From: Terriglobia bacterium
Lineage (GTDB): Bacteria > Acidobacteriota > Terriglobia > Bryobacterales > Bryobacteraceae
Assembly (NCBI GenBank): GCA_021325175.1
Contig: JAJPHS010000139.1
Location: 1 to 64,000, forward strand
Length of the DNA: 64,000 bases
Direction: 5' to 3'
The notes under the pieces were generated by a model. The model was not told where the DNA came from, did no database searches, and saw only the letters and a list, made by a program, of their open reading frames with translations. Shown piece by piece: positions 30,990-39,610 of this stretch. The translations under genes and the position numbers were made by a program. Numbering within the stretch: position 1 is the stretch's first letter; the number at the start of each line of letters is the position of its first letter.

Positions 30990-32312
30990 CTAATGGAGAA
31001 CGCCGATCGCGTATTCGAGCGCGGCGTACTGCGCCTCATAACCATACTTGGCGCCGACATTTTGAATCTCGGCTTCGGTGAGGTTCAATTGCGCCTGCGT
31101 CAGCTCGACGATCGACGACAGACCGAGATTATAACGGCCTTGCGCCAGATCGAGGGCGAGAGCGGCCTGGCGCAGGAACTGCGCGGTGACGTCGATGCGC
31201 TGAAAGGCCGCCACGGCGCTCGAATAGGCGACGCGAACGTCCCGCGAGATTCGCTCCTGCTGATCGCGAATGCGCTGCTCCGCTTCCAGAGCGCGTTGCC
31301 TCGCGGCTTCCTCGCGCGCGGAAAACAGATGCCCGTTGAACACCGGAATGTTTACGTTGGCGGCGACGGCCTCGTATTCTTTGGGGATGGGCGCGTTGCC
31401 CGGGGTGTTGATAAAAGGAATGAAGCCGCCCACGGCGACCACGCTCACGGTGGGGCGCTTCAAATCGCGCTCGGCCTCATAAAATTTCTGAGCGGACTCG
31501 CGGGAATATTGAAGGCTGGCGAGCTCGGGGCGATTGCGCATCGCTTGCGCGACCAGATCCTCCACGTTTTGCGGCGGGCCCGGCGGAAGCTGTTCCTCGG
31601 CGAGCTGATAATTCACGGACTGATCGGAGCCCAGGGCCCGCGCCAGTTCCGCGTAGGCTGCCGTGACAGCCTCCTGCGCGTCGAGAAGAATCAGCTTGGC
31701 TTGCGAGACCGTGACCTCCGCTTCGCTGACGTCGAGCTGGGATTTGAGGTTGTTCCTGGCGAGCTCGGTGACCTGATCCGCAAGCAACTGGCGCGCGTCG
31801 ACGGTTTGCTGCGCCACCTTCACCACGGCTTGCGCCTGGAGCACGCCGAAGTAGGCGCGATGGACTGCGAGGATGACGTCATATCGGGCGGCGGAGAGAT
31901 TTTGCTCCGCGGCCCGGCTTTGTAAACGCGCGCTGGCCACCAGGCTCGGGGTGCGGCCGGAATCGGTGATGAGCTGATTGAGGACCGCGCCCTGGCCGAA
32001 GCGGTCAAACAGGCGCGAGGCCGAGATGTCGCCGGCCCCCAGGCGCGAAAGGTTGTTGCCTTGCGATCCGGTGATTTCCCCGTTAAATGCGGGGTAATAG
32101 GGAGCGCGATTTATGATGATTTGTTCCGCGGCCGCGTTCAACTCGTTTTGGGCGGCCTGGATCTGCGGATGATTTTTCAGCGCGATGGCGTCGGCTTCCT
32201 GAAGCGTGAGACGCTGCGGGGTTTGAGCCGGCGCGCCGACGCGTAAAAGCGCCGCCCCGGCCAGAAGAAAAAACGCACGCAGCGGGATTGGATTATTCGG
32301 GTTGAGTCGCAT
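30990..32312 (-). CDS. TolC family outer membrane efflux protein
   Basis: LTLQEADAIALKNHPQIQAAQNELNAA...; GLSSIVELTQAQLNLTEAEIQN. Confidence 0.92.
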   Translation of the reverse strand: MRLNPNNPIPLRAFFLLAGAALLRVGAPAQTPQRLTLQEADAIALKNHPQIQAAQNELNAAAEQIIINRAPYYPAFNGEITGSQGNNLSRLGAGDISASRLFDRFGQGAVLNQLITDSGRTPSLVASARLQSRAAEQNLSAARYDVILAVHRAYFGVLQAQAVVKVAQQTVDARQLLADQVTELARNNLKSQLDVSEAEVTVSQAKLILLDAQEAVTAAYAELARALGSDQSVNYQLAEEQLPPGPPQNVEDLVAQAMRNRPELASLQYSRESAQKFYEAERDLKRPTVSVVAVGGFIPFINTPGNAPIPKEYEAVAANVNIPVFNGHLFSAREEAARQRALEAEQRIRDQQERISRDVRVAYSSAVAAFQRIDVTAQFLRQAALALDLAQGRYNLGLSSIVELTQAQLNLTEAEIQNVGAKYGYEAQYAALEYAIGVLH

Positions 32313-35300
32313 GAGGCCTCTTCCTTCCATAGACGAGCAGGTAGGCGGCCGGAACAATGAAAATCGTGAGAAGAACCGACGACGTCAGACCGCCGATAAT
32401 CGCCCGCGCCATGGGCGTGTATTGTTCGCCGCCTTCGCCCAGCTTCATGGCCATGGGCAGCATGCCGATAATGGTGGCCAGAGAGGTCATTAAAATCGGC
32501 CGCAGGCGCACGCGGCACGCCATGATGACGGCGTCGGCGACCGAATAACCCTGCTCTTCGAGTTTGTGCGCGAAGTCGACGATCAGGATGCTGTTGGAGT
32601 CGGCGATGCCGATCAGCATCAGCACGCCCATCAACGACATCACGTTCAAAGTGGTGTGGGTCAGCGGCAGAATAATCAGGACGCCGACGAAGCCCATCGG
32701 AATCGCGAGCATGATCAGAAACGGATCAATCCAGGAGCGGAACTGCGCGACCAGAATCAGGAAAAGCAGGATAAAGGAAATACCGAAACCCAGCCCGAAG
32801 CTCTTGAACGATTCCTCCATCGAATTGACCATGCCGCGCAGATTCACGCGGATGTTCGATGGCAGATGGGCATCCTGGATCGTGTTGAGAATTTCGCCGC
32901 GCAGCCGGCCCAGATCTTCGCCCTTGGGCGTGACATAGACGTCCACGACGCGCTGGATCTGATAGTGGTCGACCTCGGTCGGCGACTGCAAGTCGACCAG
33001 TCTGGCGACGGTATCGAGCGTGGTTGGCTGCTTCAGATTGGGGGCGCGCAGCGGAATCTGCCGCAGATCGATCAGACTGTGGATGGCAGCGCTGCCGCTT
33101 TCCGGATACTGCACACTGAGAAAGTAATCGTTGCCGGTTTTATAGTCGACCCAGTAATTCGGCGCGATCATGATGTTCGAATTGAGCGCCGTGATCACGT
33201 TATCGATGACGTCGGCCTGGGTGAGGCCGAGTTCGGCCGCGTGCACGCGGTCGATATCAAGGCGGACCGAGGGGTAATTCATATCCTGGGGAATATAGAT
33301 CTCCCCGGCGCCGGGCAAGGCGCGGATGCGCGCGGCAAGATCCTGCGCGGTCTTATAAGTGACTCCCAGGTCGCGCGTGTTCACCTGCACGTCGATCGGC
33401 GCGGGCTGACCCTGGTTTAAGATCGCGTCCTGAAGGGATCCGCTTTGAAAGAAAGTCCGGACCTCCGGGAATTTTTGCGCAAGCTCGGCGCGCAGCTTGT
33501 CCATGTATTCGTAGCTGCCGGTCGCGTGGCCATCGTTGAGCGCCACCTGAATGGTCGCCATGTACATTCCGGCGTTGCTGGTGTAAAGCGAAGAGATATC
33601 GTTCACCACGCCGATGTTGGAAAGAATCATTTTGAGATCCCCTGGCGCGACCACGTGGCGAATGACATCTTCGATTTTCGCCACATAATCGTTGGTGACC
33701 TCCAGACGCGTGCCCGTGGGGACCTTCACGTTGATGGTGAACTGGCCGGCGTCGGTTCGGGGAAAAAACGATTGGCCGAGCAGCGGATAAATCAGCAGGC
33801 TTCCCGCAAAGACGCCCACCAAAACGATTAAAGTGATCAAAGGCGCACGGAGCGCGCCACGGACCAGAAATTCATAGCCGTCCAGGATCCGGTTGAACTG
33901 CCGGTTAAACCACGCATTGAAGCGTCCTCCCCAGGAGAGATTTTCGACGTGCGCGTGTTCGCCGTGGCCGGCCGGAACCCCTTTAAGGAACTTCGCGCAG
34001 AACAGCGGGATCACCGTCATCGCCACCACAAACGACGCCAGCAGCGCCAGGCAGAAGGCGAGCGCCAGCGCCGAAAAAAGAAATTTGCTGACGCCGAAAA
34101 GCATCGTCACCGGGAAAAAATCGACCACATCCACCAGCGTGGCGGCGAGCACGGCCAGATTCACTTCGGCTCCGCCCTGCTCGGCGGCCATGGCCGGCGA
34201 GGCGCCCATCTCCAGATGCCGGTAGATATTTTCGAGCGAAATCACCGAATTATCGATCACGCGCGAGAATGCCAGCGCCAGCCCGCCGAGAATCATCGTG
34301 TTAATCGTGCTGCCCAGCAGATACAGCACGACCACCGTCGCCAGCGCCGAGATCGGAATCGACAGAAGGACCGCGCCGGTGGCCCGCATGCTGCCGAGAA
34401 ACAGAAGAATCATCAGTCCGGTGAGGACCAGGCCCATCAGGCCTTCATGCATCACGGTGCGGAGCGCGTCGCGCACGAATTTCGATTGATCGAAAACAAT
34501 GTTGGTGACCAGTTGCGGGGGCAGATCGAACAGATGCGCGGTCAGATTGCGCAAATCGTCGACCACCTGGATGGTATTGCTGTCGCCGCCGGATTTCATC
34601 ACCGGAATGTAGGCGGATTTTTGCCCGTCAATGCGGACGATATTGTATTGAAGCTGGCTCGCGTCCTTGGCTTCTCCGATATCGCCGATCGACACCCAGC
34701 GCTGGCCGATGGTCTTGATCGGCACATTGTCCAGGTCCTTCACCTGGTTGACCATGCTGTTGGAATAAACGTAGTAATCGTTCGGCCCGATCTTTACGTC
34801 GCCGGCGGGAAGAATCAGATTGCTTTTATTAACCGCGTCCACTACATCCATCACGCTCAACTGGCGCGAAAAAAGCCGGTACGGATCGACGTAGATCATC
34901 GCCTGCCGGTATTTGCCGCCGAACACTGCCGGAATCTCGGCGCCCTTGATCACCGCGAGCTGATTGCGAATGGTGAATTGCGCCGTATCGTGAAGCTGGG
35001 TTTCCGTCATCCCCTCGCCCTTCACCGTGACCAGCGCGACCGGCAGACTGGAGGCGTCGAATTTCAGAACCACCGGCGGAAGAGTGCCCGGCGGAAGGCG
35101 CTTCAGATCGGCCAGCGCGAGATTCGAGAGCTGGGTGAGATCGGCGTCGGCGTCCGTGCCCGGTTGAAAATATGCCTTGATGATGCTGACCCCCAGCAGC
35201 GACCGCGATTCCATATGATCCATTCCGCTCGCCTGCGTAAACCAGCGCTCCAGCGGATTGGTGATGTCGGTTTCGATATCGATCGGCGGCATGCCGTTAT

Positions 35301-35445
35301 AAAACGTCGCCACCGTGATCACCGGAAGATTGATCGGCGGAAACAGATCCACCGGCATGCGCATTGCGGCGTTAATGCCAATCACAGCGAGGGCAAGACA
35401 GCAGACGACGATGAAATAGGGATTGCGGATCGAAAAGCGGGGCAT
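32293..35445 (-). CDS. RND efflux permease (AcrB/MMPL superfamily)
   Basis: RNPYFIVVCCLALAVIGINAAMRMPVDLFPPINLPVITVATFYNG; 1050 aa, two TM repeats. Confidence 0.95.
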   Translation of the reverse strand: MPRFSIRNPYFIVVCCLALAVIGINAAMRMPVDLFPPINLPVITVATFYNGMPPIDIETDITNPLERWFTQASGMDHMESRSLLGVSIIKAYFQPGTDADADLTQLSNLALADLKRLPPGTLPPVVLKFDASSLPVALVTVKGEGMTETQLHDTAQFTIRNQLAVIKGAEIPAVFGGKYRQAMIYVDPYRLFSRQLSVMDVVDAVNKSNLILPAGDVKIGPNDYYVYSNSMVNQVKDLDNVPIKTIGQRWVSIGDIGEAKDASQLQYNIVRIDGQKSAYIPVMKSGGDSNTIQVVDDLRNLTAHLFDLPPQLVTNIVFDQSKFVRDALRTVMHEGLMGLVLTGLMILLFLGSMRATGAVLLSIPISALATVVVLYLLGSTINTMILGGLALAFSRVIDNSVISLENIYRHLEMGASPAMAAEQGGAEVNLAVLAATLVDVVDFFPVTMLFGVSKFLFSALALAFCLALLASFVVAMTVIPLFCAKFLKGVPAGHGEHAHVENLSWGGRFNAWFNRQFNRILDGYEFLVRGALRAPLITLIVLVGVFAGSLLIYPLLGQSFFPRTDAGQFTINVKVPTGTRLEVTNDYVAKIEDVIRHVVAPGDLKMILSNIGVVNDISSLYTSNAGMYMATIQVALNDGHATGSYEYMDKLRAELAQKFPEVRTFFQSGSLQDAILNQGQPAPIDVQVNTRDLGVTYKTAQDLAARIRALPGAGEIYIPQDMNYPSVRLDIDRVHAAELGLTQADVIDNVITALNSNIMIAPNYWVDYKTGNDYFLSVQYPESGSAAIHSLIDLRQIPLRAPNLKQPTTLDTVARLVDLQSPTEVDHYQIQRVVDVYVTPKGEDLGRLRGEILNTIQDAHLPSNIRVNLRGMVNSMEESFKSFGLGFGISFILLFLILVAQFRSWIDPFLIMLAIPMGFVGVLIILPLTHTTLNVMSLMGVLMLIGIADSNSILIVDFAHKLEEQGYSVADAVIMACRVRLRPILMTSLATIIGMLPMAMKLGEGGEQYTPMARAIIGGLTSSVLLTIFIVPAAYLLVYGRKRPHATQPE

Positions 35446-35470: not shown

Positions 35471-36715
35471 TCACTTCGATGGCGCGCGATATTCAATCAA
35501 CTCCACTTGCTTGGGACGAACCGTCTGGCCGGCTTTGAGTCCGCTGCGGTCGCTGACCACCACGGAATCGCCTTCCTTCAGGCCGGACAGGACTTCGGCT
35601 TGATTTTCGGTTTGGATTCCCAGCTCCACTTGGCGGATTTCGATCTTATTGTCCGGCGTGACGACGTCGACGGTGGTATTGTCGCCGTTGCGGTCGATCG
35701 CCTGAAGCGGCACCGCGAGCGCGTTAGGAATGCGCTCCAGGGTGATGGTGGCATCGGCGTAAAGCCCCGGAACCAGCACCCGATTGGGATTCGGCACGTC
35801 TACCTCGGTGTGCATGGTGCGCGTGTCCTCGCGGACATCCACGGAAAAGCGCGCCACCTTGCCGGGAAACTTCTTGTTGAGCGACGGCACGCTCACCTCC
35901 ACCGGATCGCCGATGTGAATAAAGCGTACGAACGATTCGGGAACGGGAATCACCAGCCGGAAAAGATCGTCCTCGGAAAGACGCACCAGCGGCAGCGCCT
36001 GGGTGCTGGAACTCGTTCCGGCTTGCAGCAGCGTGCCGTAATTGGCGTAGCGCTCTGTGACGACGCCTGCGAAGGGCGCGGTGATCTTGGTGTAATCGAA
36101 CAGCACCTGATCGTGCGCGCGCTTGGCTTTGGCTTGCTCGAGAACGCTCTGGGCCGATTGCAGCGTGGATTTGGTCGCCTCCACCTGCGCCTGCGCCGCC
36201 AGATCGGCGCCTTCCGCGTTATCCACTTCCTGTTGCGCCACCAGCCCCGGCTTCGACTTGGCGACGCTGCTCAGCCGGTCGTATGCCAGATGCAAGACCT
36301 TGGCGTTCGCCTCCCGCCGGTTCAGCTCGTTTTCGGCGTGCGCGATCATTTCCTGGGCATTCCGGATCGCGGCGTCGTCCTGCGCCAGTTGTTCCTGCAA
36401 TTCGGGAATCTCCAGCACGGCCATCACATCGCCGGCTTTCACCCGCGAGCCGTAGTCGACATTGAGTGTCTTCACATAGCCCGATTCCTTCGCATAAACG
36501 TCGATCTCCTGAAAAGGCACCAGTTCGGAGGATTGCGTCAGCCGCCGGACCAGTGTCGCGCGGCCCACCTGGGTCACCCCCACCGCGACAGCCTCGGATA
36601 CCTCCGTGCCGTTGTTGGCGGCGCTGGCCTTTTCCCCCGTGCTGCACGAGCACAGCGCAACTGCCAGCATTCCCGCCGCTCCGGCCAGCAGAAAACATTT
36701 TCTTCGATCGATCAC
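35471..36715 (-). CDS. RND periplasmic adaptor (MFP) lipoprotein
   Basis: GTG start VIDRRKCFLLAGAAGMLAVALCSCSTG (lipobox); ESGYVKTLNVDYGSRVKAGDVMAVLEIPEL; ITAPFAGVVTERYANYGTLLQAG. Confidence 0.92.
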   Translation of the reverse strand: MIDRRKCFLLAGAAGMLAVALCSCSTGEKASAANNGTEVSEAVAVGVTQVGRATLVRRLTQSSELVPFQEIDVYAKESGYVKTLNVDYGSRVKAGDVMAVLEIPELQEQLAQDDAAIRNAQEMIAHAENELNRREANAKVLHLAYDRLSSVAKSKPGLVAQQEVDNAEGADLAAQAQVEATKSTLQSAQSVLEQAKAKRAHDQVLFDYTKITAPFAGVVTERYANYGTLLQAGTSSSTQALPLVRLSEDDLFRLVIPVPESFVRFIHIGDPVEVSVPSLNKKFPGKVARFSVDVREDTRTMHTEVDVPNPNRVLVPGLYADATITLERIPNALAVPLQAIDRNGDNTTVDVVTPDNKIEIRQVELGIQTENQAEVLSGLKEGDSVVVSDRSGLKAGQTVRPKQVELIEYRAPSK

Positions 36716-37416
36716 AGACAATCGGTCGCCACGCCTTTCAATTTTTCTTCCAAGCCATCCAGCGAAAAGTGCGGGGACCGGCAGAATTCCGTCAGCGCTT
36801 TTTCCCCGCAAAGGATGCGCTCCGCCTCGCCGGGAATGTCCGCGGCGACTTCGCGCGGAATCGCCTGCACGCCGTGCATGTCGCCATGCAGGAGATCGCC
36901 GGAGGAAATCTTCAACCCGCCGATCACCACCGGTTCGCCAAACTCCACCAGGTGCGCATAGGAGTGCGAGACCGACAGGCTTCCCGAGAAAAGCTGAAAG
37001 CCCAGAGCGCCAACCGCGGGCAGATCGCGAACCGCTCCGTTGGTGACGCATCCGACGCAATCCAGAGCCCGGCCGATGCTGGCATGAATCTCGCCCACGA
37101 AAGCGCCAAGACCGGGCTGCGGATCCACGTCTTCGAGAACCAGAATGCGCGGAGCCGGGATCGTCGCCACAAATCGCCAGAAATCCATCCGGTCGTAGTA
37201 GCACCGGCCATGCAGCGGCGGCACTGAACTGCGAATTCGCCCGGTTACGGCATAGCCCACTATCGGCGGAAGCGTGTTGAACCGGCAGAGCACCGCGCCG
37301 CAAATGAATCCCTCATTCCGAAGCCGAACCCCCAAGCGCTCAATCGCATTACTGACGGTGCAGCCGTCGAGGGCACGCAGGCGATCCAAATCAATACCCG
37401 AAAGGGTCTGTTTCAT
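36712..37416 (-). CDS. RraA family / HMG-aldolase-like protein
   Basis: LDGCTVSNAIERLGVRLRNEGF; VGCVTNGAVRDLPAVGALGFQLFSG; ISSGDLLHGDMHGVQAIP. Confidence 0.88.
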   Translation of the reverse strand: MKQTLSGIDLDRLRALDGCTVSNAIERLGVRLRNEGFICGAVLCRFNTLPPIVGYAVTGRIRSSVPPLHGRCYYDRMDFWRFVATIPAPRILVLEDVDPQPGLGAFVGEIHASIGRALDCVGCVTNGAVRDLPAVGALGFQLFSGSLSVSHSYAHLVEFGEPVVIGGLKISSGDLLHGDMHGVQAIPREVAADIPGEAERILCGEKALTEFCRSPHFSLDGLEEKLKGVATDCL

Positions 37417-37481
37417 TCACACTCACCATTTTTTTGAGACGCCTTAACCGCCAATATAGCGATCCCCGGCCGTCGTCTAAC

Positions 37482-37499
37482 ATACCAGACAGTCGGTAT
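37482..37499. promoter_or_regulatory. operator candidate site 1 (ATACC-N8-GGTAT)
   Basis: ATACCAGACAGTCGGTAT, 66 bp upstream of the RraA/RND operon start. Confidence 0.6.
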
Positions 37500-37526
37500 T
37501 TTTAAAACCCGAATTAGGTAGCCATT

Positions 37527-37991
37527 TTAGTCCGCCGGTATCGCAGTCGGCCGGTGCGCGCCCATCCAATATGACCACGCCAGACGTATGGCCCGAGCCA
37601 GGTCTTCCCGCCGCAGCGGCTTGGGAAGGATGTCGTAGCCGCCCCTGCGCACGACTTCGTTCCAAAGATGATCATCGAAAACCTTCGGAATCAGCAGAAT
37701 GCACAGCGCGCCCGCGGCCGCGAGGCCGCTAATTGCTTGACGCCACGCATCCCCGGCCACCTCCCGGTCCAGGAGAACGATTTGATACGCGTAGCGCTCG
37801 AGCTGGCGCTGCGCAAGCTCGGTGTCGCCCGCGAACGAGACGCTCCAGCCGTGCTCCCGGCACGTTTCGCGGATCAGGGATTCGTCACGCTTATTGCCCA
37901 CCACGCACAGGATCGCGATCTCGGAATAAGCCGCACATCGGCGCTGTTCCCGCGCAAAGAACCGAGAGATGACATCAAGGATTGGGAACAC
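37527..37991 (-). CDS. orphan receiver-like (CheY-fold) protein without output domain
   Basis: AILCVVGNKRDESLIRETCREHGWSVSFAGDTELAQRQLERYAYQIVLLDREVAG...GGYDILPKPLRREDLARAIRLAW; GTG start at 37991 inferred. Confidence 0.7.
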   Translation of the reverse strand: MFPILDVISRFFAREQRRCAAYSEIAILCVVGNKRDESLIRETCREHGWSVSFAGDTELAQRQLERYAYQIVLLDREVAGDAWRQAISGLAAAGALCILLIPKVFDDHLWNEVVRRGGYDILPKPLRREDLARAIRLAWSYWMGAHRPTAIPAD

Positions 37992-38037
37992 GCGCCGCCC
38001 TACCCCGGATGCTAGCCGAGAACTGGAGCCCGGAAGA

Positions 38038-38055
38038 ATACCAGCTTTCCGGTAT
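38038..38055. promoter_or_regulatory. operator candidate site 2 (ATACC-N8-GGTAT)
   Basis: ATACCAGCTTTCCGGTAT upstream of the receiver-like gene. Confidence 0.6.
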
Positions 38056-38091
38056 TTCTCGAATGGATAGGCCGGTAGATAAGCCGTCAAA

Positions 38092-38135
38092 TAAAAAAGA
38101 CGGGCGATTCGGTGAGTGGAAAGGATCGCCCGTCT
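38092..38135 (-). terminator. intrinsic terminator of the minus-strand gene ending at 38237
   Basis: 11-bp perfect stem AGACGGGCGAT/ATCGCCCGTCT (38098-38108, 38125-38135) followed by TTTTT on minus strand. Confidence 0.85.
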
Positions 38136-38191
38136 GTCGTAACGAGGGTTTTGAGGTGATTCCAGTTTAGGAAAGCCAGATTCTATTTCCC

Positions 38192-38209
38192 ATACCATGA
38201 ATCTGGTAT
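38192..38209. promoter_or_regulatory. operator candidate site 3 (ATACC-N8-GGTAT)
   Basis: ATACCATGAATCTGGTAT. Confidence 0.55.
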
Positions 38210-38236
38210 TCGCGCACCGCACGAGCCGGTAGGCCG

Positions 38237-39610
38237 TCAGCCGATCTCGAGAATCGCCGCGCTCGCCGCGGGCAGATCGAGCCGGATTCGCCCGTTCTTA
38301 GCTGCCGGATGTTCGATTTTCGATGGCTTCCACGCGCCGCTGGAGGTTACTTCGGCTGCGGCGAGGGAAACGCCCGATTTCGCCTCGATTGAAGGAGCGC
38401 TAAGGCGCAGCAGAGAAGCTCGATTGGCTTCGACCTCAAACGAGCGCGGCGTGCGTCCTTTATTGATCAGTGTGAGCGCGAGAGCGCCGCCGTTTTGCGC
38501 GGCCCAAGCCTTCACCTCGGGCGGAGCATTCATTTCCACCGCGACCATCCGTCCCTTCGCCGCGAGCGCGAAGGCCAACATGCCGTAATATTCCGGGCGC
38601 GCCGAATAATGGCCGTGTTCATCGTCGCCGATCGGTGAATAGTGGCTTACGAAATCGAGTTGATTTACACCGGTTTCCATATTTACGCCGGCGCATCCGC
38701 TGGCAGCGAGCGTAAACAGATAATCGAGCACCCACAGCGCGGCGGCCATGGTATCGCTCACCCCCGCGCGTCCGCCGCCCGAAAATGAGTTCACTTCGCA
38801 GATGCGATACGGCAGCCCGGAGGCTTTCGAGGCGGCGTTGAGTTTGGCAAGCTCCGGCTCCAGCTTGGGATCGGGAGCAAGCAGCTTTTCGATCGTGCTG
38901 GCAGGGTTCTGGCCTTCGCGATAATAATGGTGCGTCAGCAGCACGGCATCGCGGCCTTCGTCGTTTGCGAAGCGCGTGACCCAATCGGTTTCCCGCGCGG
39001 CGTCGGGTCCGGCAAAACGGATGTTCGGGATCTCCTGGCGCAGCGCTTTCTTGAACCGCCGGTAATCAGCGAGCCATTCCTCGTAACCGTAGCCGGGTGG
39101 GCGATGCCCGGCGCGGCCGAACAGGTCGGGTTCGTTGCCGATCTCAAAGGCGAGCAGATTTGCGCCCGCCCCGGCTATGACCGCCTTCGCTTCCGCGACG
39201 GCTTCTTTTTCACTTCCGGCGCCAAGATTGAGCCCCCAGATAAGCTTCCAGCCGGTCGCTGCGCAGAATCCGCCGAGATCTTTCAAAACGCGATCGTTCA
39301 CCACGGTTCCCTTGGGCGTCGAAACCGGCGCGGCCAATGGGGAATAGCGCGCATAGTCGGAGGTATTGCCGCCAATGCGAATCACCCCGCGCGGGGCGAG
39401 CGTGCGCACCAGTTGCACATAAACGCGATTGTCGCGATGCAGCAGTCCAGGCCGCGCAACCGAGGAGATTTCGTAGCCGAGACCCATAAAATCGGCAGCG
39501 ATGCTGTAGCCCGGATTGCGCCGGGCGACAGCGACCCGGATCGGCTCATCGGCAAACGCGTTCGCGCTTGCAAGGGCGGCGGCGCCGGCGAGGAACTGGC
39601 GGCGATTCAT
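38237..39610 (-). CDS. secreted glycoside hydrolase (GH79/heparanase-like)
   Basis: Signal MNRRQFLAGAAALASANAFA; VIRIGGNTSDYARYSP, ANLLAFEIGNEPDLFG, YRICEVNSFSGGG. Confidence 0.8.
   Translation of the reverse strand: MNRRQFLAGAAALASANAFADEPIRVAVARRNPGYSIAADFMGLGYEISSVARPGLLHRDNRVYVQLVRTLAPRGVIRIGGNTSDYARYSPLAAPVSTPKGTVVNDRVLKDLGGFCAATGWKLIWGLNLGAGSEKEAVAEAKAVIAGAGANLLAFEIGNEPDLFGRAGHRPPGYGYEEWLADYRRFKKALRQEIPNIRFAGPDAARETDWVTRFANDEGRDAVLLTHHYYREGQNPASTIEKLLAPDPKLEPELAKLNAASKASGLPYRICEVNSFSGGGRAGVSDTMAAALWVLDYLFTLAASGCAGVNMETGVNQLDFVSHYSPIGDDEHGHYSARPEYYGMLAFALAAKGRMVAVEMNAPPEVKAWAAQNGGALALTLINKGRTPRSFEVEANRASLLRLSAPSIEAKSGVSLAAAEVTSSGAWKPSKIEHPAAKNGRIRLDLPAASAAILEIG

Follow-up and report, generated by a model that had tools for sequence, protein, structure and literature searches.

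The window analysed here, the whole 64,000-nucleotide stretch of Terriglobia bacterium DNA, carries on its minus strand an operon for RND efflux, a gene for a receiver-like protein (REC) and a predicted small RNA gene, each preceded by a copy of the palindromic motif ATACC-N8-GGTAT. The features of the locus are as follows.

30990-32357, minus strand: TolC-type outer membrane channel.
32293-35445, minus strand: RND permease (PF00873, E 8e-206).
35471-36700, minus strand: RND periplasmic adaptor (MFP).
36712-37416, minus strand: RraA-like protein, first gene of the operon (Pfam PF03737, E 3e-17).
37453-37458, minus strand: putative -10 element of P1, TATATT, 23 nt past GGTAT.
37482-37499, minus strand: P1, putative operator/promoter (ATACCGACTGTCTGGTAT) of the RraA-MFP-RND-TolC operon, kept upstream of RraA in relatives.
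~37517-37521, minus strand: upstream half-site CTACC of P1.
37527-37991, minus strand: receiver-like protein (putative pseudo-receiver), 154 aa, GTG start (weak Pfam Response_reg match; alignment).
38009-38014, minus strand: putative -10 element of P2, TAGCAT.
38038-38055, minus strand: P2, putative operator/promoter (ATACCGGAAAGCTGGTAT) of the receiver-like gene; the orthologous site of the same-genus genome G012 is in the same place.
~38074-38078, minus strand: upstream half-site CTACC of P2.
38089-38163, minus strand: predicted small RNA gene (covariance-model match E 1e-16, the sequence itself being in the model; fold z -3.1).
38164-38169, minus strand: putative -10 element of P3, TAAACT.
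38192-38209, minus strand: P3, putative operator/promoter (ATACCAGATTCATGGTAT) of the small RNA, with a G012 counterpart that has one mismatch.
~38228-38232, minus strand: upstream half-site CTACC of P3.

Upstream of the small RNA, a GH79-like protein (weak Pfam match) is encoded at 38237-39610 on the minus strand and is 85% conserved in G012.

The 154-aa protein is probably a pseudo-receiver, as judged from its alignment. The Asp of LLDRE and the Lys of LPKP are retained, and the acidic pair of beta-1 that marks a canonical receiver is replaced (VVGN and the like); phosphorylation is therefore doubtful. In several relatives, a nucleotidyltransferase gene of the sugar-nucleotide type adjoins REC (L078:11235-12197, L079:9212-10174 and near 1242 in L199), in one case with its own motif promoter, and the nucleotidyltransferase is a possible further member of the regulon.

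By their layout, P1, P2 and P3 are assigned to one promoter class, each on the minus strand. When the promoters of RraA, REC and small RNA genes are aligned on the motif, they share the arrangement [CTACC]-N~18-AATACC-N8-GGTAT-N22/23-TANNNT. Among 51 distinct promoters, collected with a pattern permitting 21-24 nt between GGTAT and the -10 element, this spacing was 22 nt in 26 and 23 nt in 23 (49/51 together), while CTAC was found at -22/-23 in 20/51 and at most twice at every other position. The first-pass annotation had assigned sites 1 and 2 to the minus strand and site 3 to the plus strand, and had read GGTAT as merging into an extended -10. Once the -10 is included, all three promoters point along the minus strand, and the extended -10 reading is ruled out by the conserved -10 located 22-23 nt downstream of GGTAT. 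The composite pattern yielded 63 matches in the 200 family genomes versus 3 in the control, and exactly three in the own genome, each on the minus strand. Within 400 bp of RraA, REC, MFP/RND or a histidine kinase (HK) gene lie 48 of the 58 distinct composite sites; the other 10 have no gene of the system nearby.

A search for a -35 box gave no clear signal above shuffles (2.85 vs 2.60 matches of 6). If the -10 element spans -12 to -7, the operator is centred at about -44, which, without a -35 box, would be the position of a class II activator. As a rule, the sites of repressors overlap with the core promoter, and their spacing is not so fixed. It is improbable that the regulator is instead a repressor, bound at about -44 and blocking transcription until a signal lifts the block, even though NarL itself represses some promoters (PMC4549865); the fixed spacing of 22-23 nt to the -10 and the lack of a recognisable -35 suit an activator.

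The regulator is likely a response regulator (RR) of the NarL/FixJ type with a HisKA_3 kinase, encoded on contig C139 of the own genome (G000). In G004 and G005, the site has the RraA-MFP-RND operon on one side and a divergent HK-RR pair on the other; the HK of this pair has 4HB_MCP, HisKA_3 and HATPase domains, and its RR has a GerE HTH. In many relatives, the HK-RR pair is a direct neighbour of REC, of the RND operon or of both. The G004 orthologue of the RR combines a receiver with a C-terminal GerE/LuxR HTH (Response_reg E 1e-29; GerE E 3e-21), and the kinase adjacent to it is of the HisKA_3 class (HisKA_3 E 1e-11; HATPase_c). In G000, the orthologous pair is intact on C139, away from the sites, which agrees with the earlier remark that no regulator gene is adjacent. 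The C139 RR is ~81% identical over nearly its full length, and the HK adjoining the RR at L145:6725-8044 is at 65%. The motif was not found in the region upstream of the C139 HK-RR genes. The recognition helix YTVETHRRNL is kept in the RR orthologues of G000 and G012. Across operons the comparison of this helix with the motif is not clean, as some operons linked to an RR with an altered helix lack the motif and others with altered helices keep it; the match between RR and motif is imperfect, and suggestive. From linkage, geometry and position, we infer that the C139 regulator is the protein that binds ATACC-N8-GGTAT.

In a paralogous HK-RR pair on contig C8 of G000 (L146:6567), the kinase is preceded at 49 bp by ATCCC-N8-GGTAT, a sister operator, and the same sequence is found likewise 49 bp upstream of the paralogous kinase on contig C41 of G012 (L161:4166). 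The ATCCC-N8-GGTAT of the C8 pair suggests a related specificity.

NarL operators are inverted heptamers with a 2-bp gap (7-2-7, TACCCCTAAAGGGGTA), located at -40 to -49 in napF and at -38 to -47 in yeaR of E. coli (PMC4549865). All three sites described here have the form TACC-N8-GGTA and carry the outer bases of the 7-2-7 arrangement. They thus resemble the activating NarL/NarP sites of napF and yeaR in their inverted TACC/GGTA heptamers with 2 bp between them and in a location close to the ~-44 centre, and the candidate regulator comes from the same fold family. The inner eight positions vary between the sites and do not follow the inner heptamer bases of E. coli NarL; therefore, the site works like a NarL site rather than being one. 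In contrast to the NarL/NarP sites, the acidobacterial ones have relaxed inner heptamer positions and added outer A/T, their promoters have an upstream CTACC half-site, and their presumed target is RND efflux, not nitrate respiration. The nearest solved relatives of the regulator are VraR and NarL, and it scores closer to VraR than to NarL.

The first-pass annotation had likened the 8-nt spacing to that of PadR- or TetR-type operators. We regard it as highly unlikely that the sites are operators of another dimeric protein (PadR, TetR, MarR or similar) encoded elsewhere and that the linkage to a NarL-type two-component system is incidental. The own genome has no adjacent regulator, the inner NarL positions are not conserved, and the motif copies at L083 (G022) and L101 (G019) have TetR genes next to them. 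These TetR-linked sites, however, fall outside the RraA/REC/RND system, whereas linkage of the HK-RR pair to this operon and to REC recurs in many genomes, the site lying in the common intergenic region, and the 7-2-7 geometry and -44 position suit NarL-type activators. The regulator linked across genomes is thus an HK-RR pair with a NarL-type response regulator. The companion proposal, that the RraA/RND operon and the receiver-like gene are under one and the same dimeric regulator, is supported and very probably correct; it withstands the two refuting conditions named with it, since the motif is rare genome-wide and is kept in orthologous upstream regions.

Control of RND efflux pumps by two-component systems is a known class of regulation. 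As in that class, an HK-RR pair is linked to, and probably controls, an MFP-RND-TolC operon; unlike them, the acidobacterial regulon would add an RraA-like protein, a pseudo-receiver and a small RNA. Our literature searches found no report of the regulon or of the small RNA.

On the minus strand, about 28 nt past the -10 of P3, an 11-bp hairpin (38135-38125 pairing with 38108-38098, loop CCUUUCCACUCACCGA) is followed by a T-run. Site 3 would therewith be the minus-strand promoter of a small RNA and not a plus-strand site; the predicted transcript of ~65 nt runs from ~38157 to 38092 and ends in an intrinsic terminator. Its own promoter, a conserved structure and this terminator, the marks of a bacterial small regulatory RNA, are all present at the sequence level. 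A generic terminator scan of the window did not pick up the hairpin because the loop limit of the scan is 8.

Hairpins of this kind are found downstream of motif promoters in G000, G012, G015, G017 (two loci) and G079. An initial six-RNA alignment mixed divergent members, and a five-member alignment was taken for the covariance model. This model, which makes no use of the promoter, had hits in 111 of the 200 family genomes (E<=0.01), at roughly one copy each, and detected no copies in f3, the other well-sampled family of the order. In 49 aligned copies, 96.4% of the cells pair, and 8/11 pairs are changed on both sides, with 48 such cells versus 9.1 in shuffles (0/500); the alignment was fitted to the structure and hence leans towards it, and a slide control was far lower. 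No Rfam match was obtained for the window region at E<=1 or for 11 family loci at gathering thresholds.

The hairpin at 38135-38098 might alternatively be only the terminator of the GH79-like gene, with site 3 a distal operator of the receiver gene and no small RNA at all. The 5' segment (CCCGTTACGA) and the hairpin are, however, kept amid unrelated genes, with a separate promoter at each locus, a family-wide copy exists, in the own genome too, and the -10 and CTACC of P3 occupy the standard places. Although the GH79-like gene, also on the minus strand, stops 28 bp before site 3 and the hairpin makes a good intrinsic terminator, we consider this explanation very improbable and retain the small RNA driven from site 3.

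The 44 copies outside the regulon have GTAA(C/T) upstream, followed in 35/44 by CGT at 14-19 nt, an ECF-like promoter; ATACC-N8-GGTAT was found at none of the 44. The own genome keeps such a family-wide copy at C43:4681-4760, so that the window copy looks like a duplicate whose promoter has been replaced by a NarL-type one. The family-wide small RNA, with its ECF-like GTAAC-N17-CGT promoter and C-rich loop, at times occurs in tandem (L296; also G142 and G195). ECF-sigma-dependent small RNAs with C-rich loops are a known class. The family-wide copies resemble it in their GTAAC-N~17-CGT promoters, intrinsic terminator and C-rich loop; unlike it, the acidobacterial family has no Rfam match, and the window copy has a NarL-type promoter.

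In the own genome, the loop segment CACUCACC of the small RNA is fully complementary to GGUGAGUG in the ribosome-binding region and start of RraA, and RraA ranks third of the 451 candidate start regions in the window. For the G015 small RNA, the best partner is the REC leader and the RraA pairing is not repeated; RraA therefore stays a candidate target.

The three 18-mers reported earlier are present at their positions, the case for them is stronger than first stated, and they are the only exact matches to ATACC-N8-GGTAT in the own genome (4.26 Mb, 178 contigs), all inside one 728-bp span; the reversed-pattern control gave 0 exact matches in the same 4.26 Mb. The motif is thus rare genome-wide. 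With one mismatch allowed, 41 sites were found versus 19 with the reversed control, and the relaxed matches are therefore mostly background.

The motif is also kept in orthologous upstream regions of relatives. The nearest relatives of the operon that carry a name are metagenome assemblies of Acidobacteriota (Terriglobia, Bryobacterales/Bryobacteraceae), and the sample consists mostly of incomplete assemblies of this kind. In G012, the REC orthologue is 82% identical and both flanking sites are present, and remoter REC homologues (33-44%) have the site immediately upstream too. In a motif-blind test on 29 upstream regions of RraA homologues of the family, ATACC-8-GGTAT was the top gapped palindrome (7/29; 200 shuffles gave maxima of 1-3). 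In Acidobacteriaceae and Sulfotelmatobacter-type genomes, the homologous operons are mostly without the motif, and the operator is therefore clade-specific. When the region upstream of RraA was searched for a substitute operator at 36 loci without the exact motif, mostly from Acidobacteriaceae and Sulfotelmatobacter relatives, nothing rose clearly above shuffles. Exact copies that fall within a long ORF in G004 and G022 were discarded as coding sequence. Paired copies lie between divergent RraA and receiver genes at a distance of 67 bp (L082:6290 and 6357, G036) and next to a TetR gene at a distance of 19 bp (L083:1224 and 1243, G022).

That the three matches in the window are a chance or repeat artefact has a negligible probability, as the first-pass annotation had held: the ten fixed positions are expected ~2 times per genome from base composition, yet only 0.0003 times per 728 bp (Poisson P ~6e-12 for three), and conservation of the site across many genera and genomes already refutes it.

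The sites, their rarity and conservation, the promoter layout, the gene linkage and the conservation of the RNA structure are established. We consider it likely that the three sites are operators of one NarL/FixJ regulator, which would co-activate efflux, the pseudo-receiver and the small RNA in the class II manner; the parts deduced from sequence are regulator binding, activation over repression, and what the pseudo-receiver and the RNA do. We propose that a signal is sensed by the partner histidine kinase (4HB_MCP sensor, C139), which would phosphorylate the response regulator. A dimer of the regulator would then bind the inverted TACC/GGTA heptamers centred near -44 in promoters without a -35 box, possibly assisted by the CTACC half-site two helical turns upstream, and would recruit RNA polymerase as a class II activator at the three promoters. 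The RraA-MFP-RND-TolC efflux system, the pseudo-receiver protein and the ~65-nt small RNA, presumably a paralogue of the ECF-sigma-type family-wide RNA that acquired a NarL-type promoter, would thus be co-induced, and the pseudo-receiver may tune the pathway.

A further, rather unlikely extension is that an ECF-type small RNA was duplicated and captured by the NarL-type system, and that its loop pairs with RraA in an incoherent feed-forward arrangement with the pseudo-receiver as an extra brake. If this were true, the same regulator would switch on the efflux operon together with an RNA that damps it.

For Bryobacterales-like Acidobacteriota, a soil group that is hard to culture, the proposed system would be an RND efflux regulon defined by sequence, from its operator and promoter layout to a candidate regulator and the member genes. 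It comes with a structured small RNA family absent from Rfam, one member of which appears to have been rewired to a different regulator. Together, the regulon and the RNA family yield clear and cheap predictions as to the binding regulator, the transcript starts and the messages paired.
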